Below, piece by piece: positions 15,592 through 29,849 of a DNA stretch of 64,000 bases (position 1 is its first letter; each line of letters starts with the position of its first letter). Origin of the DNA: Variovorax paradoxus (GTDB lineage: Bacteria > Pseudomonadota > Gammaproteobacteria > Burkholderiales > Burkholderiaceae_C); NCBI RefSeq assembly GCF_009755665.1, contig NZ_CP046622.1:3720001-3784000 (forward strand), written 5' to 3'. The notes under the pieces are model-generated. The model searched no databases. It was not told where the DNA came from and saw only the letters and a program-made list of their open reading frames with translations. A program made the position numbers and the translations under genes.

Positions 15592-16548
15592 TCAGTGCGC
15601 CGGCACCAGGAAGTCCTGGCTGATCCGTCCGCCCAGTTCGTTCACGCGATCGAGAAACTGCGTGAGGTAGGCATGCAGCCCCGTCGCCAGGATTTCGTCC
15701 ACCCGCGCATACTGCAGGTCGGCCAGCAGCTTGCCGGCGCGGCGCTGGGTTTCGGCGCTCTGCTCGTTTTGCACCTTGGCAAGGTTGTTCACCACCTCGA
15801 CCAGGCTCGCATGCAGCGAGCGCGGCATGTCGGCGCGAAGAATGAGCAGCTCGGCCACACGCTCGGGCTTGATCACGTCGCGGTACACCTTGCGGTACAC
15901 CTCGAAGGCCGAGACGCTGCGCAAAATGGCGCTCCAGTGATAGAAGTCGTACTCCTGGTCTTCCTCGGTGGCGGTGCCGAAGAACTCGCTGTTGAGTGCG
16001 TGGAACTTCACGTCCACCAGCCGCGCGGTGTTGTCGGCGCGCTCCAGAAAGGTGCCCAGGCGCGAGAAGTAAAAGGCCTCGTCCTGCAGCATGGTGCCCA
16101 GCGTGACGCCGCGCGACAGGTGCGAGCGGAACTTGACCCATTCGAAGAACTGGGCCGGGTCGCGCTCGAAATCTCCCGCGCGAAGCATGCGGTTCACCTC
16201 GAGCCAGGTGGTGTTCTGGGTTTCCCACGCCTCGGTGGTGAGCGCGCCGCGAACCGCGCGTGCGTTTTCGCGCGCTGCCTTCAGGCAAGAGACGATCGAA
16301 GACGGATTGCTCTCGTCCTTGACCATGAACTCCATCACCTCGTTGGGCGTGATCTGCTCGTATTTCTTGTTGTACGAAGGCAGCAGCTCGCTGATGGACA
16401 GCACGCCCTGCCAGCCGTACTTGGCCACTTCGGCCGACTGGGGCAAGAGCGAGGTCTGGTAGTTGACGTCGAGCATCCGCGCGGTGTTTTCCGCGCGCTC
16501 CGTATAGCGCGACATCCAGTAGAGGTGATCGGCAGTGCGTGACAGCAT
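15592..16548 (-). CDS. Alpha-E domain protein
   Basis: A 318-residue all-helical protein starting MLSRTADHLYWMSRYTERAENTARML (quoted in part: LYWMSRYTERAEN), the hallmark of the alpha-E superfamily. A second RADNTARLVD motif occurs at about residue 185. Alpha-E proteins accompany circularly permuted ATP-grasp ligases and transglutaminases in predicted peptide-modification operons; their biochemistry is largely unknown. The ATG at 16548 has AGGAGA upstream. It follows the ATP-grasp gene by 44 bp and surely shares its transcript. A paralogous alpha-E module is fused to the second ATP-grasp at 24376-27129. Confidence 0.88.
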   Translation of the reverse strand: MLSRTADHLYWMSRYTERAENTARMLDVNYQTSLLPQSAEVAKYGWQGVLSISELLPSYNKKYEQITPNEVMEFMVKDESNPSSIVSCLKAARENARAVRGALTTEAWETQNTTWLEVNRMLRAGDFERDPAQFFEWVKFRSHLSRGVTLGTMLQDEAFYFSRLGTFLERADNTARLVDVKFHALNSEFFGTATEEDQEYDFYHWSAILRSVSAFEVYRKVYRDVIKPERVAELLILRADMPRSLHASLVEVVNNLAKVQNEQSAETQRRAGKLLADLQYARVDEILATGLHAYLTQFLDRVNELGGRISQDFLVPAH

Positions 16549-16592
16549 TCTTGTTCTCCTGATTCCTTGCTTTGCTTGCTTGCCTGCTGCGC

Positions 16593-18092
16593 TCAGGCCG
16601 ACTGCGATTGACTTTGCGATTGCGCGGCCTTGGGCTTGGCGCCACGGTCCGCCTCGAGGATCCAGGTGTCCTTGGTGCCGCCGCCCTGCGACGAGTTGAC
16701 TACCAGCGAGCCTTCCTTGAGCGCCACGCGCGTGAGGCCGCCGGGCACCATCTGCACTTCCTTGCCCGAGAGCACGAAGGGCCGCAAGTCGATGTGGCGC
16801 GGCGCAATGCCCGCGTCGACGAAAGTGGGCGATGTGGAAAGGCTCAGCGTGGGCTGCGCAATGTAGCCGTCGGGCTTGGCGATCACGGCTTTCTTGAACT
16901 CTTCGATCTCGGCCACGGTGGCAGCCGGGCCGATGAGCATGCCGTAGCCACCGGCGCCGTGCACCTCCTTCACGACCAGGTCCTTCATGTTGTCGAGCGT
17001 GTATTGCAACTCGTCCTTGTTGCGGCACATGTAGGTGGGCACGTTCTTCAGGATCGGCTGCTCGCCGAGATAGAACTCGACCATCTTGGGCACGTAGGGG
17101 TAGATCGACTTGTCGTCCGCCACGCCGGTACCCACCGCATTGCAGATGACGACGTTGCCTTCGCGGTAGGCGCGCATCAGGCCTGCGCAGCCCAGCGTGG
17201 ACGTGGGGCGGAAAACCTCCGGGTCCAAGAAATCGTCGTCGACGCGGCGGTAGATCACGTCCACCCGCTTCGGCCCGCGCGTGGTGCGCATGTAGACGAA
17301 GTCGTCACGCACGAAGAGGTCTTGCCCCTCGACCAGTTCCACGCCCATTTGCTGCGCGAGGAAGGCGTGCTCGAAGTAGGCGCTGTTGTACATGCCCGGG
17401 GTCAGCACGACCACGGTGGGCTCGGCCGTCGCAGGCGGCGCGCTGGCGCGCAGCGTTTCGAGCAGCAGGTCGGGGTAATGCGCGACGGGCGCAATGCGGT
17501 TCTGGTTGAACAGCTCGGGAAAGAGCCGCATCATCATCTTGCGGTTTTCGAGCATGTAGCTCACGCCGCTGGGAACGCGCAGGTTGTCTTCGAGCACGTA
17601 GTACTCGCCGTTGCCTTGGGCGTCGGGCGCGCGGACGATGTCGATGCCCGAGATGTTGGAATAGACGTTGTGCGGCACGTTCACACCCATCATCTCGGGG
17701 CGGAACTGCGCGTTGTTCAGGATCTGCTCAGCCGGAATGATGCCGGCCTTGATGATTTCCTGGTCGTGGTAGACGTCATGCAAGAAGCGGTTGAGCGCCG
17801 TCACGCGCTGCACCAGGCCTTTTTCCATGCTCTCCCACTCGTGGGCGGGAATGATGCGCGGCAGCAGGTCGAACGGTATGAGCCGCTCGGTACCCGAACC
17901 GTCTTCATCCTTGGCGCCGTACACCGCAAAGGTGATGCCGACCCGGCGAAAGATCATTTCCGCCTCTTCGCGCCTCGCCCGCATGACTTCGCCGGGCTGC
18001 TTTGCAAGCCATTGGTCGTAGCGCTTGTAGTGCTGCCTGATTGCAGACCCCGCATAGGGCAACTGCTCATACATCTCATCGAATTTGTGCAT
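16593..18092 (-). CDS. Circularly permuted ATP-grasp protein (stand-alone paralogue)
   Basis: A 499-residue protein of the circularly permuted ATP-grasp family, predicted to join a carboxylate to an amine through an acylphosphate. Conserved blocks include EYYVLEDNLRVPSGVSYMLE, VVLTPGMYNSAYFEHAFLA, DVIYRRVDDDFLDP and VVKEVHGAGGYGML, the last probably in the ATP-binding subdomain. The start at 18092 has AAGGAGA upstream; in-frame sequence further up belongs to the antisense of comEC. The C-terminus is a low-complexity AAQSQSQSQSA tail, echoed in two other proteins of this region. It lies upstream of the alpha-E gene and 91 bp after comEC. Confidence 0.88.
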   Translation of the reverse strand: MHKFDEMYEQLPYAGSAIRQHYKRYDQWLAKQPGEVMRARREEAEMIFRRVGITFAVYGAKDEDGSGTERLIPFDLLPRIIPAHEWESMEKGLVQRVTALNRFLHDVYHDQEIIKAGIIPAEQILNNAQFRPEMMGVNVPHNVYSNISGIDIVRAPDAQGNGEYYVLEDNLRVPSGVSYMLENRKMMMRLFPELFNQNRIAPVAHYPDLLLETLRASAPPATAEPTVVVLTPGMYNSAYFEHAFLAQQMGVELVEGQDLFVRDDFVYMRTTRGPKRVDVIYRRVDDDFLDPEVFRPTSTLGCAGLMRAYREGNVVICNAVGTGVADDKSIYPYVPKMVEFYLGEQPILKNVPTYMCRNKDELQYTLDNMKDLVVKEVHGAGGYGMLIGPAATVAEIEEFKKAVIAKPDGYIAQPTLSLSTSPTFVDAGIAPRHIDLRPFVLSGKEVQMVPGGLTRVALKEGSLVVNSSQGGGTKDTWILEADRGAKPKAAQSQSQSQSA

Positions 18093-18183
18093 GGAACGAC
18101 CAATCTCCTTGAGCCATAGCTTAGCAAGTTCGAGGCCAGTGAAAGCCCTATGTTGGCGCGGATTCCGCCCCGTGGGCCGCTTT

Positions 18184-20652
18184 TCAGGGCAGGCGGTGAT
18201 GCCAATGACGGGCGTTGCGCTCCCTTTCGCAGCCAACCTCTTGAGGCGCCTGGCTGCGCCATAGCGCGGCGCCGCAAGGCACGGTTTCGACGAGCCGCAC
18301 ACCGTGGGCGGCATAGCGTTCCACGACCTCGCGGGCCGGATGGCCGAAGCGGTTACGGTAGCCCGCCTGGACCAGCGCGATGCGCGGGTGCACCGCTTCG
18401 AGCAGCGCCTCGCTCGACGAGGTCTTGCTGCCGTGATGCGGTGCGAGCAGGAGGTCGGCGCGAAGCTCCGGGCTTCGCGCCACCAAGGCAGCCTCTTGCA
18501 GGCGTTCGATATCGCCGGCCAGCAGCGCCGTGGCGCGGCCGTTCGCGATACGCAGCACGCACGAAATGGCGTTCGGCTTGGTGAAGAAAAGATAGTCGGC
18601 CGGTGCGGGATGGAGAATTTCGAAATCCACCCCATCCCAGGTCCAGCGTTGGCCCGCTTCGCAGCGCCTGTTCGGACGAACGGCCTGCAGCGGATGAGTG
18701 GCTTCGATCGAACTCAAGACTTCGGCCTGGGGCTGCATCGCGAGCACCGCGGCCGCGCCGCCAGTGTGGTCGCTGTCGCGGTGGCTCAGCACAAGCATGT
18801 CCAGCCGTTCGCCCAAGGCACGCAGCAAGGGCACCAGCACGCGATGCCCGGCGTCGCTCTCCAGGCTGTAGCGCGGGCCCGCGTCGTACAGCAGGCTGTG
18901 CGTTGCCGTGCGCACGAGAACCGCGTTCCCCTGCCCGATGTCGGCCGCAAGCAGTTCGAACTGCCCGGCGGGCGGCCGGGGTGCCTGCCACAGCAGCACC
19001 GGCAGCAGAAGCGGCAGGCCGAGCAAACGCAGCGACCACGGCAGGCGCATGGCCAGCAGCACGCCGCCCGCCACACCGAAGCCGGCCATCCACGCGGGAG
19101 GAGCAGCCATCGACAGCGTGGCATACGGCAAGGTGGCAAGCCACTTCAGCAGCACAGCCAGCGCCTGAACGGCCCACGCGGCAAGGTCCCATAGAGGCGG
19201 CACCGCGGCACCCAGCATGGCCAGCGGCGTGATCACGAGCGTTACCCACGGAATTGCAACCGCATTGGCCAGCAGACCGACCACCGACACCTGCTGAAAA
19301 AGCAGCAGGCTCAGCGGAGTGAGGGCCAGCGTGATCACCCATTGCTCGCGAAAAAACGCCAGCAGCCGGAGCGATGGCCCGGTCGTCTCGCCGGCAGGCC
19401 TCATGAAGCCGGTCGTGAACAGCACACCCACCGCGACGAAGCTGAGCCAGAAGCCGGCCTGCATCAGCGCCCAAGGGTCGACAGCCACCACCACCGCCGC
19501 GATCAGCAGCCAGACGTGCGGCCATGGCCAGCGCCGCCCGTCGAGCCTCAGCAGCGCCGCCGTGGCCAGCATCCAGACTGTCCGCTGCGAAGGCACGCCC
19601 CAGCCGCTGAAGAGCGCATAGAGCCCGGCGAGCAGCACGCCGCCCACGAGCGCGGCCTGCGGCGCGGGAAAGCGCAGCATGAGCCGCACGCTGCGCCGCC
19701 ACGCCGCCCCTACCGCGTGCGCGGCAAGCCAGGCGAACATGGTGATGTGCAGGCCCGAGATCGACATCAGGTGCGCTACGCCGGTGGCGCGAAAAATGTC
19801 CCAGTCGCTGCGGTCGATGGCGCCCTGGTCGCCGGTGACAAGCGCGGCAATCACGCCCGCCTGACGCGCATCGGCCACGCGCTCGAACACCGCATCGCGC
19901 ACTGCTTCGCGCGCACGTTCGAACGGGTGTAGCCATGTGGCCTGAAGACGAACGGGCGCGGCGTCGCGGCCGCCGGTTCGCACATAGCCGCTGGCGCGCA
20001 CGCCCTGCTCCCACATCCACAGTTCGTTGTCGAAACCATGCGGATTGAGGTTGCCGTGCGGCGCCTTCAGCCGGACGGTCAGGCGCCAGCGTTCACCCAC
20101 ATGCAGCGGGGCCGGGTCAGCCGCTCCGCCGGCACGCCCTTGCGGCGCGCGTCCCCAAAGGCTGGTGTCGTCGCGGTACCAGCCGAGCGCAATGCGCGCC
20201 GGCACACGAACCGAAGTTTCGACGCGCTCATCGGCCCAGCGCGCCGACTCGACATCGAGACGGAAACGCGTGCCGCCTTCGTTGTGCTGGGGCATTTGCG
20301 CCACCACGCCGGTCACCTGAAGATCGCGCCCTTCGAGGGCCGGGTCCAATGCGCCATTCGCGTAGGCAACCGCCCGCCATCCGGCAAGGCCGCCCCCGGC
20401 GGACGCGCCGCAGGCCAGGGCAACGAGCATCGGCAAGTAAGACGATCGCCGCCTGGAGAGCACCACCAATCCCGCAAGCCCCGCTAAGAGCAAGGCTGCA
20501 TAGAACGCCGCGCTCCAAAGCCGCGCCTGATGCAACTGCAATGCCGCGCCGAACACGGTTCCGCCCAGCGCAGCAAAGGCCCACGACCCGGACGCGACGC
20601 CGCCCGACGCCTTTGCGCGCGTCAACGGCAAACTCCAGAACACACGATGCAA
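18184..20652 (-). CDS. comEC: ComEC/Rec2-family DNA uptake protein
   Basis: An 822-residue polytopic inner-membrane protein. The order is an N-terminal DUF4131-like region with membrane segments (about 25-75), the Competence domain (GVAHLMSISGLHITMFAWLA near residue 290) and a C-terminal metallo-beta-lactamase domain with LVLSHRDSDHTGG near residue 645. ComEC carries single-stranded DNA across the inner membrane during natural transformation. It lies between two divergent ATP-grasp/alpha-E/transglutaminase loci, and its stop is only 91 bp before the stand-alone ATP-grasp gene, so co-transcription is possible. No other competence genes are in the window. Confidence 0.92.
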   Translation of the reverse strand: MHRVFWSLPLTRAKASGGVASGSWAFAALGGTVFGAALQLHQARLWSAAFYAALLLAGLAGLVVLSRRRSSYLPMLVALACGASAGGGLAGWRAVAYANGALDPALEGRDLQVTGVVAQMPQHNEGGTRFRLDVESARWADERVETSVRVPARIALGWYRDDTSLWGRAPQGRAGGAADPAPLHVGERWRLTVRLKAPHGNLNPHGFDNELWMWEQGVRASGYVRTGGRDAAPVRLQATWLHPFERAREAVRDAVFERVADARQAGVIAALVTGDQGAIDRSDWDIFRATGVAHLMSISGLHITMFAWLAAHAVGAAWRRSVRLMLRFPAPQAALVGGVLLAGLYALFSGWGVPSQRTVWMLATAALLRLDGRRWPWPHVWLLIAAVVVAVDPWALMQAGFWLSFVAVGVLFTTGFMRPAGETTGPSLRLLAFFREQWVITLALTPLSLLLFQQVSVVGLLANAVAIPWVTLVITPLAMLGAAVPPLWDLAAWAVQALAVLLKWLATLPYATLSMAAPPAWMAGFGVAGGVLLAMRLPWSLRLLGLPLLLPVLLWQAPRPPAGQFELLAADIGQGNAVLVRTATHSLLYDAGPRYSLESDAGHRVLVPLLRALGERLDMLVLSHRDSDHTGGAAAVLAMQPQAEVLSSIEATHPLQAVRPNRRCEAGQRWTWDGVDFEILHPAPADYLFFTKPNAISCVLRIANGRATALLAGDIERLQEAALVARSPELRADLLLAPHHGSKTSSSEALLEAVHPRIALVQAGYRNRFGHPAREVVERYAAHGVRLVETVPCGAALWRSQAPQEVGCERERNARHWHHRLP

Positions 20653-20764
20653 GCCCTCCCCGGACCCACGCTCAATGGCGCGTTAATTGCTTGGTATCTG
20701 GGCTAGTATGCGTCTCACAAGAGACATCTTTTCGATGCAATCTCGCAGTACTGCACACAAACGC

Positions 20765-23700
20765 ATGTCCATTCACGCCGCACTCCACCACGTCACCCAC
20801 TACAAATACGACCGCCTGGTGCAGTTGGGACCGCAGGTCGTGCGCTTGCGTCCCGCACCGCATTGCCGCAGCAACGTCATCTCGTATTCGCTCAAGGTCG
20901 AGCCGGCCGAGCACTTCGTCAACTGGATGCAGGACCCGTTCGCCAATTACCAGGCGCGGCTCGTGTTTCCCGAGAAGACGCGCGAGTTCAAGGTCACGGT
21001 CGACCTGGTGGTCGAAATGGCGGTCTACAACCCGTTCGACTTCTTCCTCGAGCCGCAGGCCGAGAACTTTCCGTTCAAGTACACCGCCTCGCAGGCCGAA
21101 GAACTCGCGCCCTACCTGGTCACCGAAGAAGCCACGCCGCTCGTTTCGGCCTACCTCGACAAGATCGATCGCAAGGAACAGCGCACCATCGACTTCCTGG
21201 TCGGCCTCAACCAGCAGGTCCAGAAAGACGTCAACTACCTGATCCGCATGGAGCCCGGTGTGCAGACGCCGGAAGAAACGCTCACCAACGGCAGCGGCTC
21301 GTGCCGCGACTCGGGGTGGCTCCTGGTGCAGCTGCTGCGCCACTGCGGCCTGGCGGCGCGTTTCGTCTCGGGCTACCTGATCCAGCTGACCCCCGACGTG
21401 AAGGCGCTCGACGGCCCGAGCGGTACCACGGTCGATTTCACCGACCTGCACGCCTGGTGCGAAGTGTTCCTGCCGGGCGCGGGGTGGATCGGCCTGGACG
21501 CCACGTCGGGCCTCATGGCCGGCGAAGGCCACATTCCGCTCGCCTGCACGCCCACGCCTTCAAGCGCGGCGCCCATCGAGGGCGGCGTCGACGAATCGGA
21601 GGTCGAGTTCGGCCATGAGATGAAGGTCACGCGCATCTACGAATCGCCGCGCGTCACCAAGCCCTACACCGAAGAGCAATGGGCCGAAGTGCTCGCGCTC
21701 GGCGGCGCGGTCGATGCGCGCCTGAAGGCCGGCGACGTGCGGCTCACCATGGGTGGCGAGCCGACGTACGTGGCCACCAGCGACCGCGACGCGCCCGAGT
21801 GGAACACCGATGCGCTCGGCCCCACGAAACGCGGCTATGCCACGGAGCTCGTCCACAGGCTGCGCGCCGAATACGGCCAAGGCGGTTTTCTCCATTTCGG
21901 CCAAGGCAAGTGGTACCCGGGCGAGCAACTGCCGCGCTGGGCGCTGTCGATCTTCTGGCGTGCCGACGGCCAGGCGCTCTGGCACAACCCCGAACTCTTT
22001 GCCGACGAGCGCGTGCCCACGCACTACACGAGCGAAGATGCGCGCCGCTTCACTACCGTGCTGGCGCACAAGCTCGGCATTACCGAGCGCTACGTCCAGC
22101 CCGGCTACGAAGACGTCTACTACTACCTGTGGCGCGAACGCCGCCTGCCGGTGAATGTCGACCCCTTCGAATCGAAGCTCGACGACGAACTCGAGCGCGT
22201 TCGCCTGCGACGCGTGTTCACGCAGAAGCTCGACGCGGTCATCGGCTACATGCTGCCGCTCGAGCCTGGCAACGCCGATGCCGATGCGCCCGCGCTCGCA
22301 GGCCCGGGCTGGAAAACCGGCCCCTGGTTCCTGCGCGACGACCGGCTCTACCTGATCCCGGGCGATTCGCCCATGGGCTACCGGCTGCCGCTCGATTCGC
22401 AGCCCTGGGCCAACAAGGGCGACTACCCCTACCTGGTCGAGCGCGACCCGACCGCGCCGCGCGCCGCGTTGCCGACCTCGGCCGATTACCGCGCGCGCTA
22501 CGCTGTGCCTGGCGGTGGCGCAACCGGAGCCGACCTTGGCGCCGTGCCCTACGAATTTGGCGCGCCGCCCGTGGTGCCCGCCTCCCTGCGCATGCAGTCG
22601 CCCGGCGGCAGCGCAGCCTCGAGCGGCGATGCGGCTAGCGGCGATGCAGCCAAAGCCGCAGACTCCTCCACGAATCCGGCCACCCGCCAGCCCCTGCGCG
22701 GCGAATCGGCCCATTGGGTCACGCGCACCGCGCTGTGCGTCGAAGTGCGCGACCCGCGCCGTGCCAACGGCCCCGCGGCCGAGAAAAAGGGCAACGCCTC
22801 GGGCGTGCTGTACGTCTTCATGCCGCCGCTCGCGCGGCTGGAAGACTATCTCGACCTGGTCGCGGCCGTCGAAGCCACGGCCGAGCAGCTCGGCATGCGC
22901 ATCGTGATGGAAGGCTATCCGCCGCCGCGCGACCCGCGCCTGAAAATGCTGGCCGTCACCCCCGACCCAGGCGTGATCGAAGTCAACATCCATCCGGCCC
23001 ACAACTGGAAGGAACTGGTGGACCACACCGAGTTTCTCTACAACGCCGCGTTCGAAACCCGCCTCTCGGCCGAGAAGTTCATGACCGACGGCCGCCACAC
23101 CGGCACCGGCGGCGGCAACCACTTCGTGATGGGCGGCGCCACGCCGGCCGACAGTCCCTTCCTGCGCCGGCCCGAGCTGCTGGCCAGCCTGCTGCTCTAC
23201 TGGCACAACCATCCGTCGCTGAGCTACCTGTTCTCGGGCATGTTCATCGGCCCGACCAGCCAGGCGCCGCGCGTGGACGAAGCGCGCAACGACCAGGTCT
23301 ACGAGCTTGAAATCGCCTTGAAGGAAATTGCGAGAAACCGCGAAATCCACGGCCAGAACATGCCGGCCTGGCTGGTCGACCGCACGCTGCGCAACATCCT
23401 GATCGACGTGTCGGGCAACACGCACCGGAGCGAGTTCTGCATCGACAAGCTCTACTCGCCCGACTCGAGCACCGGCCGCCTGGGCCTGCTCGAACTGCGC
23501 GCCTTCGAAATGCCTCCGCATGCGCGCATGAGCATTGCGCAGCAGCTACTGATCCGCGCACTGGTGGCGCGCTTCTGGGACGACCCGTACAAGGCACCCG
23601 TCACGCGCTGGGGCACCGAGCTGCACGACCGCTTCCTGCTGCCGACCTTCGTCAAGATGGACTTCGACGACGTGATCAGCGAAATGCGCCAGGCCGGTTT

Positions 23701-24292
23701 CGCGTTCGACATCGACTGGTTCGCGCCGCACTTCGAGTTCCGCTTTCCGCTGGTGGGCCAGGTGCAGGCCATGGGCGTGGAGCTCTCGCTGCGCAACGCG
23801 CTGGAGCCTTGGCATGTGATGGGCGAGGAAGGCTCGGCCGGCGGCACGGTGCGCTATGTCGACTCGTCGCTCGAACGCATCGAGGTGCGCGTGACCGGCC
23901 TGAACGAAAGCCGCCACGTGATCACCGTCAACGGCAAGGTGCTGCCGCTGCAACCCACCGGCACCGTGGGCGAGTTTGTGGCGGGCGTGCGCTACAAGGC
24001 CTGGAACCCGCCTTCGGCGCTGCATCCGAGCATCGGCGCCCACGCACCGCTCACCTTCGACATCGTCGACACCTGGATGAAGCGCTCGTTGGGCGGCTGC
24101 CAGTACTACGTGGCCCACCCGGGCGGGCGCAACTACGACACCCTGCCGGTCAACGCCTACGAGGCGGAAAGCCGCCGCATGTCGCGTTTTGCGCGCATGG
24201 GCCACACGCCTGGCCTGATGCGCACGCCGCCGGCCACCATCGAGCTCGCGGGCAGCCGCGAATTCCCGTTCACCCTCGATTTGCGGCGGTGA
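20765..24292 (+). CDS. Giant transglutaminase-like DUF2126 protein
   Basis: A 1175-residue protein. The N-terminal part (about 1-290) is a transglutaminase-like domain with a bacterial N-terminal beta region; the triad is Cys180 (GSGSCRDSGW), His229 (DLHAWCEVF) and Asp245 (IGLDATSG). The remaining 850 residues match the DUF2126 type, with VRLTMGGEPTYVATSDRD near 325 and an unassigned C-terminal half. The ATG at 20765 (MSIHAALHHVTHYKYD) was chosen because family homology starts there; earlier ATGs would add up to 26 residues. No signal peptide. First gene of the plus-strand locus, divergent from comEC. It may cleave or form isopeptide bonds in partnership with the ATP-grasp enzymes; this is inference. 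Confidence 0.88.
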   Translation: MSIHAALHHVTHYKYDRLVQLGPQVVRLRPAPHCRSNVISYSLKVEPAEHFVNWMQDPFANYQARLVFPEKTREFKVTVDLVVEMAVYNPFDFFLEPQAENFPFKYTASQAEELAPYLVTEEATPLVSAYLDKIDRKEQRTIDFLVGLNQQVQKDVNYLIRMEPGVQTPEETLTNGSGSCRDSGWLLVQLLRHCGLAARFVSGYLIQLTPDVKALDGPSGTTVDFTDLHAWCEVFLPGAGWIGLDATSGLMAGEGHIPLACTPTPSSAAPIEGGVDESEVEFGHEMKVTRIYESPRVTKPYTEEQWAEVLALGGAVDARLKAGDVRLTMGGEPTYVATSDRDAPEWNTDALGPTKRGYATELVHRLRAEYGQGGFLHFGQGKWYPGEQLPRWALSIFWRADGQALWHNPELFADERVPTHYTSEDARRFTTVLAHKLGITERYVQPGYEDVYYYLWRERRLPVNVDPFESKLDDELERVRLRRVFTQKLDAVIGYMLPLEPGNADADAPALAGPGWKTGPWFLRDDRLYLIPGDSPMGYRLPLDSQPWANKGDYPYLVERDPTAPRAALPTSADYRARYAVPGGGATGADLGAVPYEFGAPPVVPASLRMQSPGGSAASSGDAASGDAAKAADSSTNPATRQPLRGESAHWVTRTALCVEVRDPRRANGPAAEKKGNASGVLYVFMPPLARLEDYLDLVAAVEATAEQLGMRIVMEGYPPPRDPRLKMLAVTPDPGVIEVNIHPAHNWKELVDHTEFLYNAAFETRLSAEKFMTDGRHTGTGGGNHFVMGGATPADSPFLRRPELLASLLLYWHNHPSLSYLFSGMFIGPTSQAPRVDEARNDQVYELEIALKEIARNREIHGQNMPAWLVDRTLRNILIDVSGNTHRSEFCIDKLYSPDSSTGRLGLLELRAFEMPPHARMSIAQQLLIRALVARFWDDPYKAPVTRWGTELHDRFLLPTFVKMDFDDVISEMRQAGFAFDIDWFAPHFEFRFPLVGQVQAMGVELSLRNALEPWHVMGEEGSAGGTVRYVDSSLERIEVRVTGLNESRHVITVNGKVLPLQPTGTVGEFVAGVRYKAWNPPSALHPSIGAHAPLTFDIVDTWMKRSLGGCQYYVAHPGGRNYDTLPVNAYEAESRRMSRFARMGHTPGLMRTPPATIELAGSREFPFTLDLRR

Positions 24293-24375
24293 AGGGCCGT
24301 AAAGCCACCCAAGGGGACATTTAGCACATTGCCCGCCACCTCACCCGGTGACGGCAATGTGACAATCCAACCCCT

Positions 24376-27129
24376 GTGGACCCTTTGAACGAATCCCTGT
24401 TCGACGCCCAGGCGCTGGAATTTCCGGCCGCCCTGGCGTCTGCGCTCGCGCCGGCCGCCCTGCCCGGCCACTTCGACGAACTGCGCGGCCAGGCCACGCT
24501 CGCCGCGCCGCCGCGCCAGGTCGCCGGCGTAGCCCCGGCGGTGGCCACGCCGCCCGCGCTCTACGATGCGGCGGCCGAGCGGCCCGCGCTTGCACCGAAT
24601 CCGTCGCAGGCCCAATTCCAGACGCAGACACAGACCCAGGTTCTTCAGCAACCGCAGCCCTCCAACGAGAAGCCGCCCCTCACGCCGGCCTGGAACGCTT
24701 TCTTTGAGCAGCTCGGCCCAGGCGGGTTTGGCGACCTGCCGCGGCGGGCGGTCAACCTCGAACGGCAGATCCGCGACAACGGCGTTACCTACAACGTCTA
24801 CGCCGACGCCAACGGTCCGCAGCGCCCGTGGTCGCTCGACCTGTTCCCGCTGATCGTCTCGCCCGAAAGCTGGAACCAGATCGAAACCGGCGTGCTGCAG
24901 CGGGTGCGCGTGCTCGACCGCGTCATGGCCGACGTCTACGGTCCGCAGCAACTGCTGAGCGAAGGCCTCCTGCCGCCGGCGCTGGTGCGCGGGCACCCCG
25001 GCTACCTGCGCGCGCTGCACGGCGTGAAGCCGCCGGGCGACACCTGGCTGCACATCGCGGCCTTCGACCTCGCCCGCGGGCCCGACGGCAACTGGTGGGT
25101 GGTGTCGCAGCGCACGCAGGCGCCTTCGGGCCTGGGCTATCTGCTCGAAAACCGGCTTGCCATCACGCGCCAGTTTCCGCAGGCCTTCGAGGCGCTGCAG
25201 GTGCAGCGCCTGGCCGCCACCTACAGCGCCATGATGGACGGCCTGCAGCGCATGTGCCCGGCCGGGGTGCCGCCGCACATTGCGCTGCTCACCCCAGGCC
25301 CCTACAACGAAACCTATTTCGAGCACGCGTACCTGGCGCGCTATCTCGGCGTGACGCTGGTCGAGGGCAGCGACCTCACGGTGCGCGACCAGCGGCTCTA
25401 CCTCAAGACACTGCAGGGCCTGCGCCCGGTTCACGGTCTCATCAAGCGGCTGGACGACCAGTTCCTCGACCCGCTCGAACTGCGCCCTGATTCCACGCTG
25501 GGCGTGCCGGGCCTGCTGCAGGCCATTCGAGCCGGCAACGTGCTTGTGGCCAACATGCCGGGGTCGGCGTTTCTCGAATCGCCCGCGCTGCTGGGCTTCT
25601 TGCCGGGACTCGCGCGCCGCCTGATCGGCGAAAAGCTCAAGCTGCCGGCGCTGCCGACCTGGTGGTGCGGCGAGCGCGCCGCGCTAGAAGCGGTACTGCC
25701 GCAGTTGGGCGAGTGCGCCATCAAGCCGACCTACCCCGGGTTCGACGGGCAGACCAGCTTCGACGCGGTGCTCGGCAGCGAACTGAGCCGGCGCCAACTC
25801 GACGAATGGGCCGGCCGCATCGTGCGGGACGGCGAAGCCCACACCATCCAGAGCTACCTGCCGCTGTCGCAGATGCCCACCTGGGCCAATGACCTGGGGC
25901 CGGGCCACATTGCGCCGCGCGCGATGCTACTGCGCGTTTTCGCGGTGAGCGACGGCGCGCAGTCATGGCGGGTGCTGCCCGGCGGGCTGGCACGGCTTGC
26001 GGGCCGCGATGCGCAAATCGCCTCCATGCAGCGCGGCGGCAGCAGCGCCGACGTGTGGGTGCAAACGCACGGCGAAGTCGACCGCACCACGCTGCTGCAG
26101 CCGCATGCCACGCCGGCTTCGCTCGCGCGGCACCGTGCGCCGGTCACCAGCCGTGCGGCCGAGAACATGTTCTGGCTCGGCCGCTATACCGAGCGGGCGG
26201 AAAACGCGGTGCGGCTCGCGCGCCTCACGCTCAACCTCCTGGGAAGCGAAGACCAGTCTTCGCGCCCGCTGCTCGACTGGCTGCATCGCATGGCCTTGCG
26301 CAATGCGCTGGTGCCGGCGGGCGTGCCCAGCGCGCCGCAATCGCGCCGGGTGTTCGAGCGCGCGCTGATTGCCGAGCTCGGCGATGTGGAGCGCGGCGGA
26401 AGCGTGGGCTTCAGCCTGCTCTGCATCCGGCAGGCCGCCGCCGCCGTGCGCGAGCGGCTCTCGCAGGACAACTGGAACCAGATTGTGCGCGCCGAAGCCG
26501 AGTTTCTGCGGCGCGCTGCCGAGCAGGCCGGCGAAGGCAGCTTTGCCACCGGCGCCGCGCTGCGCGCCCTCGAATCCGCAAGCACCGCACTCGCCGCCAT
26601 GACCGGCGCGCAGACCGACCGCATGACACGCGACGACGCCTGGCGCCTGCTGTCGATCGGCCGCCACATCGAGCGGCTGGGCTTTCTTTCGAACGCGATG
26701 GAGGCCGGCTTCGAGAATGGAGCGGTGCACGAGGTGAGCGGCTTCGAAGCCATGGTGGCGCTGTTCGACAGCACCATCACCTTCCACGCCCGCTACCAGC
26801 AGCGGCGCGATGTGGCCACGCTGGTCGACCTGCTGGTGCTCGATGCCGAGAACCCGCGCTCGCTGGCGTGGGTCACGCAAACACTGCGCGGGCGCATTGC
26901 GCGCCTTGCGGGCAGCGCACCCGGCAAGCTCACCGCACTGTCTTACGAACTGCCCGATCCCGCGACCTGGACGCTCGAGCATCTCTGCGCGGCCGGCGCC
27001 GATGCCGACTACCCCGCACTGGTCCAGCTTCTCGCCAGCTGCGAGACGGCGGCCTACCATGTGTCCGACGCCATCGGTACGCGCTATTTCACGCTCACGT
27101 CGGAATCGCTGCGTTCGGTCGGCGCCTGA
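24376..27129 (+). CDS. Circularly permuted ATP-grasp and alpha-E fusion protein
   Basis: A 917-residue protein with a GTG start (GTGGACCCT). A low-complexity N-terminus contains QFQTQTQTQ and PQPS runs (about 75-100). The ATP-grasp part covers about 110-580, with VVSQRTQAPSGLGYLLENRL, LLTPGPYNETYFEHAYLARY and IKRLDDQFLDPLELRP matching the stand-alone paralogue at 16593-18092. The alpha-E part begins at AAENMFWLGRYTERAENAVR (about 594) and runs to the end. The fusion shows that ligase and alpha-E proteins work together. It starts 83 bp after the DUF2126 gene, in the same likely operon. Confidence 0.9.
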   Translation: MDPLNESLFDAQALEFPAALASALAPAALPGHFDELRGQATLAAPPRQVAGVAPAVATPPALYDAAAERPALAPNPSQAQFQTQTQTQVLQQPQPSNEKPPLTPAWNAFFEQLGPGGFGDLPRRAVNLERQIRDNGVTYNVYADANGPQRPWSLDLFPLIVSPESWNQIETGVLQRVRVLDRVMADVYGPQQLLSEGLLPPALVRGHPGYLRALHGVKPPGDTWLHIAAFDLARGPDGNWWVVSQRTQAPSGLGYLLENRLAITRQFPQAFEALQVQRLAATYSAMMDGLQRMCPAGVPPHIALLTPGPYNETYFEHAYLARYLGVTLVEGSDLTVRDQRLYLKTLQGLRPVHGLIKRLDDQFLDPLELRPDSTLGVPGLLQAIRAGNVLVANMPGSAFLESPALLGFLPGLARRLIGEKLKLPALPTWWCGERAALEAVLPQLGECAIKPTYPGFDGQTSFDAVLGSELSRRQLDEWAGRIVRDGEAHTIQSYLPLSQMPTWANDLGPGHIAPRAMLLRVFAVSDGAQSWRVLPGGLARLAGRDAQIASMQRGGSSADVWVQTHGEVDRTTLLQPHATPASLARHRAPVTSRAAENMFWLGRYTERAENAVRLARLTLNLLGSEDQSSRPLLDWLHRMALRNALVPAGVPSAPQSRRVFERALIAELGDVERGGSVGFSLLCIRQAAAAVRERLSQDNWNQIVRAEAEFLRRAAEQAGEGSFATGAALRALESASTALAAMTGAQTDRMTRDDAWRLLSIGRHIERLGFLSNAMEAGFENGAVHEVSGFEAMVALFDSTITFHARYQQRRDVATLVDLLVLDAENPRSLAWVTQTLRGRIARLAGSAPGKLTALSYELPDPATWTLEHLCAAGADADYPALVQLLASCETAAYHVSDAIGTRYFTLTSESLRSVGA

Positions 27130-27158
27130 ACACGCCCTTTTTTGAAGGAGGCCGCAGC

Positions 27159-27962
27159 ATGCTTGCCAACCGCCGCATCACGTGGATCGCCGCCGGACTT
27201 GCTGCTCTTGCGCTGGCCGGTTGCGGCAAGCAGGAGCCTGTGACCGCCACTACGGCGCCAGCTCCGCCGGCGACAGCCCGCGTGCTGGTGGTCGGCACCG
27301 ATGCCGCCTACACCCCGTTCGAGTCGCAGAACGAAAAAGGCGAGATCGCCGGTTTCGACATCGATGTGGTCAAGGCGATCGCGGGCAAGGCGGGGTTCGA
27401 GGTGAAGTTCGTCAACACCCCGTGGGAAGGCATCTTCAACGCGCTCGACCAGGGCGACCGCGACCTGCTGGTGTCGGCCATTACCATCACCGGCGAGCGC
27501 CGCCAGACCATGGATTTTTCGAAGCCCTACTTCGAAGCCAAGCAACTCATCGCAGTCAGGCGCGATGCGCAGGTGGCCACGTTCGACGACGTCAAGGCCA
27601 TGAAGGTCGGCGTGCAGAACGGCACCACGGGCGACGAGGTGGTGGGCAAGCTCCAGGGCAAGTCGAGCGGCAACATCAAGCGCTTCGAGTCCACGCCGCT
27701 CGCGCTCAAGGAACTCGAAGCCGGCGGCGTGCAAGCCGTGGTGGCCGACAACGGCGTGGTGGAGCACTACCTTGCCAACAACCCTGGAGGCGGCTTCAAG
27801 ACGGTGAGCGATGCGGCCTTCCCGGTCGAGCAATACGGCATTGCGGTCAAGAAAGGCAATGCGGAACTCCTGGCCCGGATCAACAAGGGCCTGGACGACA
27901 TCAAGGCCGACGGCAGCTACGACAAGATCTACGCGGCGCATTTCGGCAGCGCGCCGAAGTAG
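27159..27962 (+). CDS. Orphan family-3 solute-binding lipoprotein
   Basis: A 267-residue periplasmic binding protein of the polar-amino-acid type. A lipobox LALAGCGK places the lipidated Cys at 22, followed by a short Thr/Ala/Pro linker. The binding domain shows GTDAAYTPFESQNEKGEIAG, FDIDVVKAIA and LVSAITITGERRQTMDFSKP. AAGGAGG gives a strong ribosome-binding site for ATG 27159. No permease or ATPase gene is adjacent, so it either shares a distant transporter or acts as a ligand sensor for the surrounding ligase and transglutaminase proteins. Lies 29 bp after the fusion gene and 16 bp before the second transglutaminase. Confidence 0.88.
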   Translation: MLANRRITWIAAGLAALALAGCGKQEPVTATTAPAPPATARVLVVGTDAAYTPFESQNEKGEIAGFDIDVVKAIAGKAGFEVKFVNTPWEGIFNALDQGDRDLLVSAITITGERRQTMDFSKPYFEAKQLIAVRRDAQVATFDDVKAMKVGVQNGTTGDEVVGKLQGKSSGNIKRFESTPLALKELEAGGVQAVVADNGVVEHYLANNPGGGFKTVSDAAFPVEQYGIAVKKGNAELLARINKGLDDIKADGSYDKIYAAHFGSAPK

Positions 27963-27978
27963 CCCCAGCAGGAACCCC

Positions 27979-28971
27979 ATGCTTCTTCACGTCACGCACG
28001 AAACCCGCTACGAGTATTCGCCCCCGGTCGAAACGGCGCAGCACCTGGCCCACCTGAAGCCGCTGGCCACCGCGTCGCAGCGGCTGGTGAGCCACAAGCT
28101 CGCCATAGAACCCCAGCCCGCGCAGCGCAACGAACTGCCCGACGTGTACGGCAACACCCGCGCCTTCTTTGCGCTCGAGGCCACGCACGACAGCCTCGTG
28201 GTCACCGCCGAAAGCGTGGTCGAAACCTCGGCGCCCGTGCTTTCGCCAGCTGTGGCGCGCGACCTGCCCTGGGAAGCCGTTCGCGAGCGTTTCCGATATC
28301 GCAAGGACGCCACCTTCGACCTCGCCTCCGAGTTCGTTTTTCCCTCGCCCTACGTGCCCCGCCACGACGACTTTGCGGCCTATGCGCGCGCAAGCTTCGC
28401 GCCCGAGCGGCCGACCTTCGACGTGGCGATGGACCTCACCGAGCGCATGTACCGCGACTTTGCCTACGAGGCCGACAGCACGGAGATCAGCACCCCCGCC
28501 GTCGAGGCGCTCGCGCAGCGCAAGGGCGTGTGCCAGGATTTCGCCCACATCATGATTGCCTGCTTTCGCATGATGGGCCTGCCCGCGCGCTACGTGAGCG
28601 GCTACCTGCTCACGCAGCCGCCGCCCGGCCAGCCGCGGCTGGTGGGCGCCGACGCCTCGCACGCCTGGGTGTCTGTGTACCTGCCCGGCGAAGGCGACGG
28701 CCCCGAGAGCGCCGGCGGCTGGGCCGAGTTCGATCCCACCAACGGCCGCCAGCCGGGCGAAGACTACGTCGCGCTTGCCATCGGACGCGACTATTCCGAC
28801 GTGTCGCCCATGCGCGGCGTGCTGCACGGCGGCGCGCGCCACACGCTCAAGGTGGGCGTGACGGTGCAACCCATCGAAGAGCTGCGCACGCAGGCGGCGC
28901 AAGCGGCGCAGTCACAATCACAGACACAATCGCAAATTCAATCGCAACCCTCGGACAAGGATCTCCAATGA
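27979..28971 (+). CDS. Transglutaminase-like family protein
   Basis: A 330-residue protein with a bacterial transglutaminase-like N-terminal domain (HVTHETRYEYSPPVETAQH) and a core with Cys185 (KGVCQDFAH), His228 (DASHAWVSV) and Asp252 (EFDPTNG). In this family the fold usually serves as a cysteine protease or amidase. The C-terminus carries a Gln/Ser-rich run (AQSQSQTQSQIQSQ) like the tail of the ATP-grasp at 16593-18092. No signal peptide. Its stop overlaps the RidA start as ATGA, so the two are coupled. Confidence 0.88.
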   Translation: MLLHVTHETRYEYSPPVETAQHLAHLKPLATASQRLVSHKLAIEPQPAQRNELPDVYGNTRAFFALEATHDSLVVTAESVVETSAPVLSPAVARDLPWEAVRERFRYRKDATFDLASEFVFPSPYVPRHDDFAAYARASFAPERPTFDVAMDLTERMYRDFAYEADSTEISTPAVEALAQRKGVCQDFAHIMIACFRMMGLPARYVSGYLLTQPPPGQPRLVGADASHAWVSVYLPGEGDGPESAGGWAEFDPTNGRQPGEDYVALAIGRDYSDVSPMRGVLHGGARHTLKVGVTVQPIEELRTQAAQAAQSQSQTQSQIQSQPSDKDLQ

Positions 28972-29426
28972 GCGTTTACGACAAGCTTTCCAGCCTCGGC
29001 ATCACCCTCCCCCCGGTCGCCGCCCCCGCAGCAGCCTATGTGCCCTTCGTGCGCACCGGCAACCTGGTTTTCCTCTCGGGCCATATCGCCAAGAAGGACG
29101 GCAAGGTCTGGACCGGCCAGCTCGGCGCCGACATCAGCACCGAAGAAGGCAAGCAGGCCGCGCGCGCCATTGCCATCGACCTGCTGGGCACGCTGCACGC
29201 GGCCGTGGGCGACCTGAACAAGATCACGCGCATCGTCAAGGTCATGAGCCTGGTCAACTCCGTCGGCACCTTCACCGAGCAGCACCTGGTGACCAACGGC
29301 GCCAGCGAGCTTTTTGCCGAAGTGTTCGGCGCCGAGAAGGGCTCGCATGCGCGCAGCGCGTTCGGCGTGGCACAGGTGCCGCTGGGCGCCTGCGTCGAGA
29401 TCGACCTGGTTGCCGAAGTCGGCTGA
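28968..29426 (+). CDS. RidA family protein
   Basis: A 152-residue YjgF/YER057c/UK114-fold protein. Family features are NLVFLSGHIAKKDGKVWTGQ, a central helix (ARAIAIDLLGTLHAAVGDL) and the C-terminal HARSAFGVAQVPLGACVEID, with the Arg of HARSAFG near the expected ligand-binding position. Canonical RidA deaminates reactive enamines and imines; this longer subtype may differ. Translational overlap with the transglutaminase gene suggests use in the same pathway, perhaps clearing an imine by-product, but that is inference. Confidence 0.85.
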   Translation: MSVYDKLSSLGITLPPVAAPAAAYVPFVRTGNLVFLSGHIAKKDGKVWTGQLGADISTEEGKQAARAIAIDLLGTLHAAVGDLNKITRIVKVMSLVNSVGTFTEQHLVTNGASELFAEVFGAEKGSHARSAFGVAQVPLGACVEIDLVAEVG

Positions 29427-29450: not shown

Positions 29451-29849
29451 ATGAGCGTGCAGGCCCTGCGCTCTTCCTTCGGCAACAACTGCCACTGGTG
29501 CGGCTTGCCGATGGATTTTGCGGAGCCTCGCAGCAAGCCCGATTCGGCCACCATCGAGCACTTGAACGACTCGACGCTGGGCGGCGTTCGCAAGCAGAAG
29601 CACCGGCGCCTTGCCCACGCCATCTGCAACCACACGCGCAACGAGTTCAAGCTGCAGGCCGAACGGAATTTCGAGCGCTGGATTGCCGAGCGCCTCGAAC
29701 TCAGCCGCCTCTTTGGCGTTGCGGATCGCTCCGCCGCTGTGCCGGCCGCTATGCCGGCTGAGATGAGCCCCGCACCACCAGTTGCCCCGGCAGAAGCAGC
29801 TGGCGAGCCGCCACGTCCAGCCCCTGCAGCCGTTCAATCAGGCACGTAG
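29451..29849 (+). CDS. Small HNH-like zinc-site protein, function uncertain
   Basis: A 132-residue protein. A CHWCGLPM pair of cysteines (residues 15 and 18), TIEHLNDSTLGG and LAHAICNHTRNEF resemble the arrangement of HNH nucleases (Cys-x2-Cys, a central His-rich strand, then a Cys-Asn-x-x-Arg-Asn helix). The last 45 residues are an Ala/Pro-rich tail. The 3' 101 bp overlap the 3' end of lacI on the other strand, which may explain the compositional tail. A nuclease activity is plausible but not demonstrated. It follows ridA by 24 bp. Confidence 0.6.
   Translation: MSVQALRSSFGNNCHWCGLPMDFAEPRSKPDSATIEHLNDSTLGGVRKQKHRRLAHAICNHTRNEFKLQAERNFERWIAERLELSRLFGVADRSAAVPAAMPAEMSPAPPVAPAEAAGEPPRPAPAAVQSGT

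Follow-up and report, generated by a model that had tools for sequence, protein, structure and literature searches.

Here, we report on two divergent loci in a window of 64,000 nucleotides from Variovorax paradoxus (G000:C1:3720001-3784000 of the 5.57-Mb genome), which encode circularly permuted ATP-grasp proteins, αE proteins and proteins of the transglutaminase (TGase) fold. The minus-strand locus (set I) is a pair of separate ATP-grasp and αE genes, and the plus-strand locus (set II) holds a TGase-DUF2126 gene, a fused ATP-grasp–αE gene and a further TGase gene. With a probability of roughly 0.58, the two loci would constitute one nitrogen-regulated amide-bond system, in which a module with an active ATP-grasp stands beside a module whose glutamine synthetase (GS)-like DUF2126 domain replaces a dead ligase.

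In the mechanism that we propose, the two modules would form and cleave amide bonds as one system of the kind described by Iyer 2009, each locus being read from a sigma-54-type promoter, most likely via NtrC at low nitrogen. The ATP-grasp and αE of set I would make up a working ligase that phosphorylates a carboxylate and then joins it to an amine, as in glutathionylspermidine synthetase, with αE as its obligate, presumably substrate-handling, partner. The ATP-grasp of set II, dead yet conserved, would hold or position αE and perhaps the substrate, while the GS-like DUF2126 domain would act as the ATP-using ligase and the papain/TGase-fold domains would cut the amide bond made.

Active sites of the ligases and their partners

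The separate ATP-grasp of set I has an intact set of active-site residues (E168-D-N170-x-R172, D327-K328, K375 and K474). The Mg-binding Glu and Asn (E-x-N-x4-S) are kept in all 94 separate ATP-grasps compared, the window copy included, and E-D-N is likewise intact in the separate ATP-grasp of Sphingomonas. In the fused protein of the window, the residues matching this Glu and Asn are lost. None of 69 distinct fused proteins has the Asn matching N170, as against 94/94 separate ones; it is likewise missing from all 30 fused proteins sampled phylum-wide (five genomes shared) and from all of 12 further fused or fused-length open reading frames (ORFs), among them some from Actinomycetota and Acidobacteriota. 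Along with the Mg-ligand positions, the fused proteins have lost D327-K328 and the greater part of the Gly-rich loop. The sets of 94 and 69 were obtained by excluding tblastn stretches with stops, which retained 97 ATP-grasp and 79 fused hits, and by length and duplicate filters, which left 94 and 70; the window's own fused protein stood twice among the 70, giving 69. A re-reading of L210 yielded the same protein as G382 in the phylum set of 30.

The positions that have changed in the fused proteins are themselves conserved (R170 in 68 of 69, Q172 in 66, G178 in 68 and E237 in 67), and the fused protein evolves under strong purifying selection. The fused ATP-grasp is therefore probably a maintained pseudo-ligase rather than a product of decay, catalytic inactivity being the most plausible consequence of the lost residues. 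A literature search, which did not cover Iyer 2009 itself, returned nothing on inactive, pseudo- or degenerate ATP-grasps and nothing on DUF2126.

The same conserved replacements and purifying selection could also be expected if the fused ATP-grasp were changed and not dead, N170R and R172Q having created a new active site, for instance that of a metal-light nucleotide switch or of an acyl transferase working with αE. We find this unlikely, however, as the Mg-ligand matches, D327-K328 and most of the Gly-rich loop were lost together and position 375 also varies in fused proteins beyond the order. The original prediction had taken both ATP-grasps to be active, the two loci jointly making or attaching a peptide. 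The families present, their co-occurrence and the intact residues of set I agree with it, but every fused protein examined has lost at least the active-site Asn, which makes that proposal improbable. Its statement that the ligases would join amide bonds is not supported for the fused ATP-grasp, which lacks catalytic residues, and inactive ATP-grasp sites, which it had named as grounds for abandoning the idea, occur in the fused protein but not in set I.

The candidate replacement ligase, the TGase-DUF2126 protein, consists of a cysteine-protease-like domain with a Cys-His-Asp triad and a GS-like amidoligase domain. GTGGGNH and EVN[IV][HQ]P are present in 44 of 44 DUF2126 sequences and are candidate active-site motifs with a presumed catalytic role. 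The window protein has LDATSG; 43 of the 44 have DPTSG. The DUF2126 protein and the remaining TGases encoded in the genome all have the TGase Cys-His-Asp residues. A loose pattern test on 95 mixed TGases, with groups unsorted, gave HAW in 95, the Cys pattern in 56 and the DPTN pattern in 54, and conservation of the triad is thus stated only for the three TGases of the genome and the DUF2126 protein. Across 199 genomes of the phylum, DUF2126 was present in 60, the fusion in 58 and both in 53. The 58 were counted at 324.9 bits or more in an open frame of at least 800 aa without a stop and are a lower bound, since G265, G336 and G362 proved to be fused too. Granulicella (Acidobacteriota) has the identical DUF2126–fusion–TGase order.

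The αE protein, for which the AF2 model is confident (pLDDT 92.4), is an internal duplication of two helical halves with one ER motif each. Many structure-search rows cover a single bundle, residues ~1-154 in some and 154-318 in others, and the halves are homologous by hhalign (98.8%, E 4.9e-17, all rows) with their ER motifs aligned, as compared with at most 1.02% in 20 column-shuffled controls. The duplication is visible in separate αE or in all rows, but not when fused αE rows are taken by themselves (hhalign 6%). Comparison of αE with the PDB gave no convincing or clear fold relative. In 75 αE sequences, separate as well as fused, S3, W11, R14, E17, R18, G147, G165, E169, R170 and P242 are invariant; in a second set of 38, E17 and G165 were just nearly invariant (at least 90%). 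αE is therefore conserved even where its ATP-grasp partner appears dead, and a pseudo-ligase that is found in three phyla and conserved in its fusion with αE suggests that αE is the functional core. As a tentative extension, with the odds somewhat against it, the αE–ATP-grasp fusion may mark an ancient, multi-phylum class of pseudo-ligases: the dead ATP-grasp would serve as a scaffold or sensor for αE, αE with its paired ER sites would perform substrate chemistry or delivery, the GS-like domain would provide the acyl-phosphate, and this split ligase would be deployed with its active paralogue in nitrogen starvation via sigma-54.

Promoter signals and probable nitrogen control

Both transcription units carry a -24/-12 sigma-54-like site. 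TGGCGCGTTAATTGCT, before the DUF2126 gene, is the sole hit with no more than one mismatch in the window, and TGGCCTCGAACTTGCT, before the ATP-grasp gene, is a two-mismatch site. Hits with up to two mismatches numbered 31 against 41 expected, which means no enrichment over the whole window. When sites were required to match at least 9 of 11 positions with GG/GC intact, they were found upstream of ATP-grasp in 48 of 76 loci, the window included and many of them at a similar distance from the start (shuffled mean 3.3, maximum 9), and upstream of DUF2126 in 20 of 35 (shuffled 1.7, maximum 4). Removal of similar upstream sequences left 47/74 and 19/34, respectively. Elsewhere, such sites preceded αE in 0 of 82 cases, TG2 in 1 of 50 and the fused ATP-grasp in 0 of 4. 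A sigma-54-like site was missing from the Polynucleobacter loci and from several loci of Oxalobacteraceae. The 16 near-exact matches across the genome are followed by genes that form no evident nitrogen list.

NtrC-type dyads with up to two mismatches were clearly enriched before ATP-grasp (34/75, about 4.3 expected) and more weakly so before DUF2126 (6/35, about 1.8 expected). The window ATP-grasp gene is preceded by one unconvincing three-mismatch hit (18368-18384). The sites at both loci fit the published account of Burkholderia cenocepacia H111, in which, as far as the available part of the paper goes, expression of the homologous cluster is strongly dependent on NtrC and sigma-54 (PMC5491218). 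Partial accounts from the Anbu literature likewise have Anbu induced in nitrogen-limited cultures of P. putida (PMC5666114, PMC6376114), and an excerpt on marine metagenomes links these domains to urea domains (PMC3597751). NtrC control under nitrogen shortage would most likely apply in the present organism as well. No sigma-54-like site precedes Anbu itself, either here (upstream of 1201 in L007) or in 30 of 30 relatives, and the detached Anbu may for this reason have left the regulon.

Several observations weigh against one nitrogen-regulated system with a dead, replaced ligase. Sites are missing in 28 of 76 ATP-grasp and 15 of 35 DUF2126 upstreams, antisense strands gave 5 and 6 hits, respectively, and comEC upstreams 1 in 3. 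Genome-wide, there are 16 matches to the near-exact site pattern and 8 to its reversed control. Upstream of the window DUF2126 gene, no NtrC dyad was found within three mismatches. DUF2126 was not found in 5 of the 58 fused genomes and so cannot be the partner ligase everywhere. The fused protein of G362 (L213) retains E168, with the Asn replaced by His, and is a possible intermediate of catalytic loss; that of L182 has D at position 168. The fused protein may still bind nucleotide, since K375 is retained in 57 of 69 and position 474 is K in several of the phylum-wide proteins. Also, no profile match could be obtained between the set I ATP-grasp and E. coli GspS, so that the Mg ligands are assigned from motif spacing and fold and not from a superposition of residues.

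Co-occurrence, gene order and neighbouring genes

The idea of one co-occurring system was borne out in a sample of 100 genomes of the order, in which αE was present in 48, Anbu in 47, Bact_transglu_N in 46 and DUF2126 in 31. Anbu accompanied αE in 46 of 48 genomes and occurred in 1 of 52 without αE, an association that a Fisher test overstates because related genomes are not independent. All 17 genomes with a fused protein (by bit score and frame length) also had a separate αE and DUF2126, and the separate and fused αE lay within 20 kb of each other in 12. The order of set I in relatives is ATP-grasp–αE–TGase–Anbu or ATP-grasp–αE–Anbu–DUF2126. A search with αE gave at least 510 named loci; of the best 80, 78 had ATP-grasp and 30 had Anbu within the retrieved stretch. 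In G027, a genome with four αE matches, a single 20-kb stretch (L030) contains a fusion, Anbu and two pairs of separate ATP-grasp and αE genes.

The original prediction had seen no Anbu. This is correct for the window but not for the genome, where an Anbu gene lies at G000:C1:3941245-3942081, 205 kb from set I and outside its operon, and encodes a protein with matches among the solved structures of Anbu (best E 8.7e-93); absence of Anbu from the genome is thereby ruled out. The genome encodes three proteasome-like proteins (G000:C1:929252, 2427551 and 3941245; L005, L006 and L007): HslV with HslU, a second homologue, which is presumably BPH-like and follows a dihydrolipoamide acyltransferase-like gene, and Anbu, which follows mutS.

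Its distribution in the order, and its frequent place after ATP-grasp–αE–TGase in the 30 named loci, would suit a tagging or degradation pathway in which the ligases would attach a tag to proteins and Anbu would cut either the tag or the tagged protein. However, in each of the three genomes that represent this family in the order sample, Anbu is detached, by 205 kb here, 272 kb in G048 and 1.7 Mb in G090; here it also lacks a sigma-54-like site, and the published work, in the part available, found neither peptidase activity nor a partner complex for Anbu (PMC6376114); such a pathway is accordingly hard to credit. That two unrelated systems became neighbours around comEC by chance is very improbable: set II is missing between ridA and comEC in some set I relatives (L036, L097 and L100), but it never occurs without set I in the order (17/17), the two αE are mostly close together, and both loci have sigma-54-like sites.

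Profile search (Pfam) confirmed the families originally named, with scores far over the cut-off, and every gene was located as predicted (Table 1). An NCBIfam search gave no family name for the ATP-grasp, αE, DUF2126 or TGase proteins. A circularly permuted ATP-grasp adjoins αE in both loci, and a search of the genome beyond them found no other αE and no other circularly permuted ATP-grasp. Both TGase-fold proteins of the loci lie in set II, none in set I; a third, lone TGase with the same N-terminal domain and an intact triad at G000:C1:2755842 (L051) is perhaps the displaced set I TGase. The start of the TGase-DUF2126 gene is best placed at 20765, in agreement with a database entry of 1175 aa, while the annotated start of the fused gene is uncertain, conservation beginning at about 24661.

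Table 1. Features of the two loci, in window positions
Feature	Position	Strand	Remarks
αE protein, set I, 318 aa	15592..16548	-	Pfam PF04168, 332 bits
Separate circularly permuted ATP-grasp, set I, 499 aa	16593..18092	-	CP_ATPgrasp_2, 555 bits
Sigma-54-like site TGGCCTCGAACTTGCT	18123..18138	-	30 bases upstream of ATP-grasp start; 9/11 consensus positions
comEC, between set I and set II	18184-20652	-	
Sigma-54-like site TGGCGCGTTAATTGCT	20676..20691	+	73 bases upstream of DUF2126 gene start
TGase-DUF2126 protein, set II, 1175 aa	20765..24292	+	DUF2126 (PF09899), 1332 bits
Fused ATP-grasp–αE, set II	24376..27129	+	CP_ATPgrasp_2, 467 bits; αE, 194 bits
Codons S244-Q-R246-T-Q248 of the fused protein	25105..25119	+	replace set I E168-D-N170-L-R172
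Family-3 amino-acid-type solute-binding lipoprotein	27159..27962	+	PF00497, 143 bits
TGase-like protein, set II, 330 aa	27979..28971	+	Cys-His-Asp triad intact
RidA-like protein	28968..29426	+	start overlaps TGase stop by 4 bases

The lipoprotein and RidA, both originally counted as components of the plus-strand locus, do not belong to it in general. The lipoprotein lies between fusion and TGase in 2 of 30 family loci, those of this genome and of a congener, in 0 of 16 other order loci holding a fused αE and in 0 of the 20 fused-αE loci among the 80 best of at least 510 named loci; it was rejected as a core component and regarded as a genus-specific insertion. Of the 30 family loci, compared in short stretches, at least 20 have RidA after the set II TGase, which, like the overlap with the TGase stop, speaks for membership. 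It was not seen in any of the 15 loci with set II from other families, and it adjoins comEC without set II in between in L036 and in L096, L097, L100, L108 and L150. RidA was hence rejected as well, being a neighbour of comEC also where set II is missing from the spot.

comEC itself, which the original prediction had not mentioned, sits between both loci in several relatives too. A small ORF at window positions 29451-29849 (+) shows by eye an HNH-nuclease-like Cys/His pattern with no Pfam match, and on a Sphingomonas plasmid an arginyltransferase gene lies two genes past αE, beside set I (L204, 7145-7942).

Comparison with known systems

Descriptions of the αE/ATP-grasp/Anbu system go back more than fifteen years, and the papers found, in the parts available, name no substrate. 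Citing papers, in excerpt, credit the αE/ATP-grasp/TGase operon type to Iyer 2009 (PMC5666114, PMC6376114), and the two loci can consequently not be called undescribed, as had been proposed. New here are the loss of residues in the pseudo-ligase, the duplication in αE, the conserved sigma-54-like sites, the location of Anbu, and the lipoprotein and RidA as passengers. With the ligases presumably able to work (set I and DUF2126) separated from a probable non-worker (the fused protein), the system becomes testable: nitrogen limitation is when to look, in an rpoN-dependent manner, and the lipoprotein and RidA are neighbours to omit.

The operon of Iyer 2009, as represented in citing work, is ATP-grasp–αE–TGase–Anbu and comprises the same families; relatives of the window show set I in the order ATP-grasp–αE(–TGase–Anbu). 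In contrast, TGase and Anbu are here detached from set I, and there is an additional module, which includes DUF2126 and a fused, probably dead ATP-grasp. The B. cenocepacia H111 cluster I35_5080-83 shares the DUF404/407 ATP-grasp, DUF403 (αE), a TGase and a large TGase protein (PMC5491218), whereas in the window there are two transcription units, which run divergently. Comparative promoter and active-site analyses are added here, none having been found in the available part of that account.

The only solved sequence relative of the set I ATP-grasp, and its sole profile match at E<=10, is 3n6x from Methylobacillus flagellatus (E 1.6e-209); its name, glutathionylspermidine synthase, is a putative label, for which no established function was found. 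The likeness to glutathionylspermidine synthetase/amidase lies in a ligase being paired with a papain-fold amidase, and the window system is not a member of that group. Unlike in this enzyme and in trypanothione synthetase, ligase and amidase are here separate proteins, αE stands without a counterpart, and the set II copy of the ligase has lost its Mg ligands.
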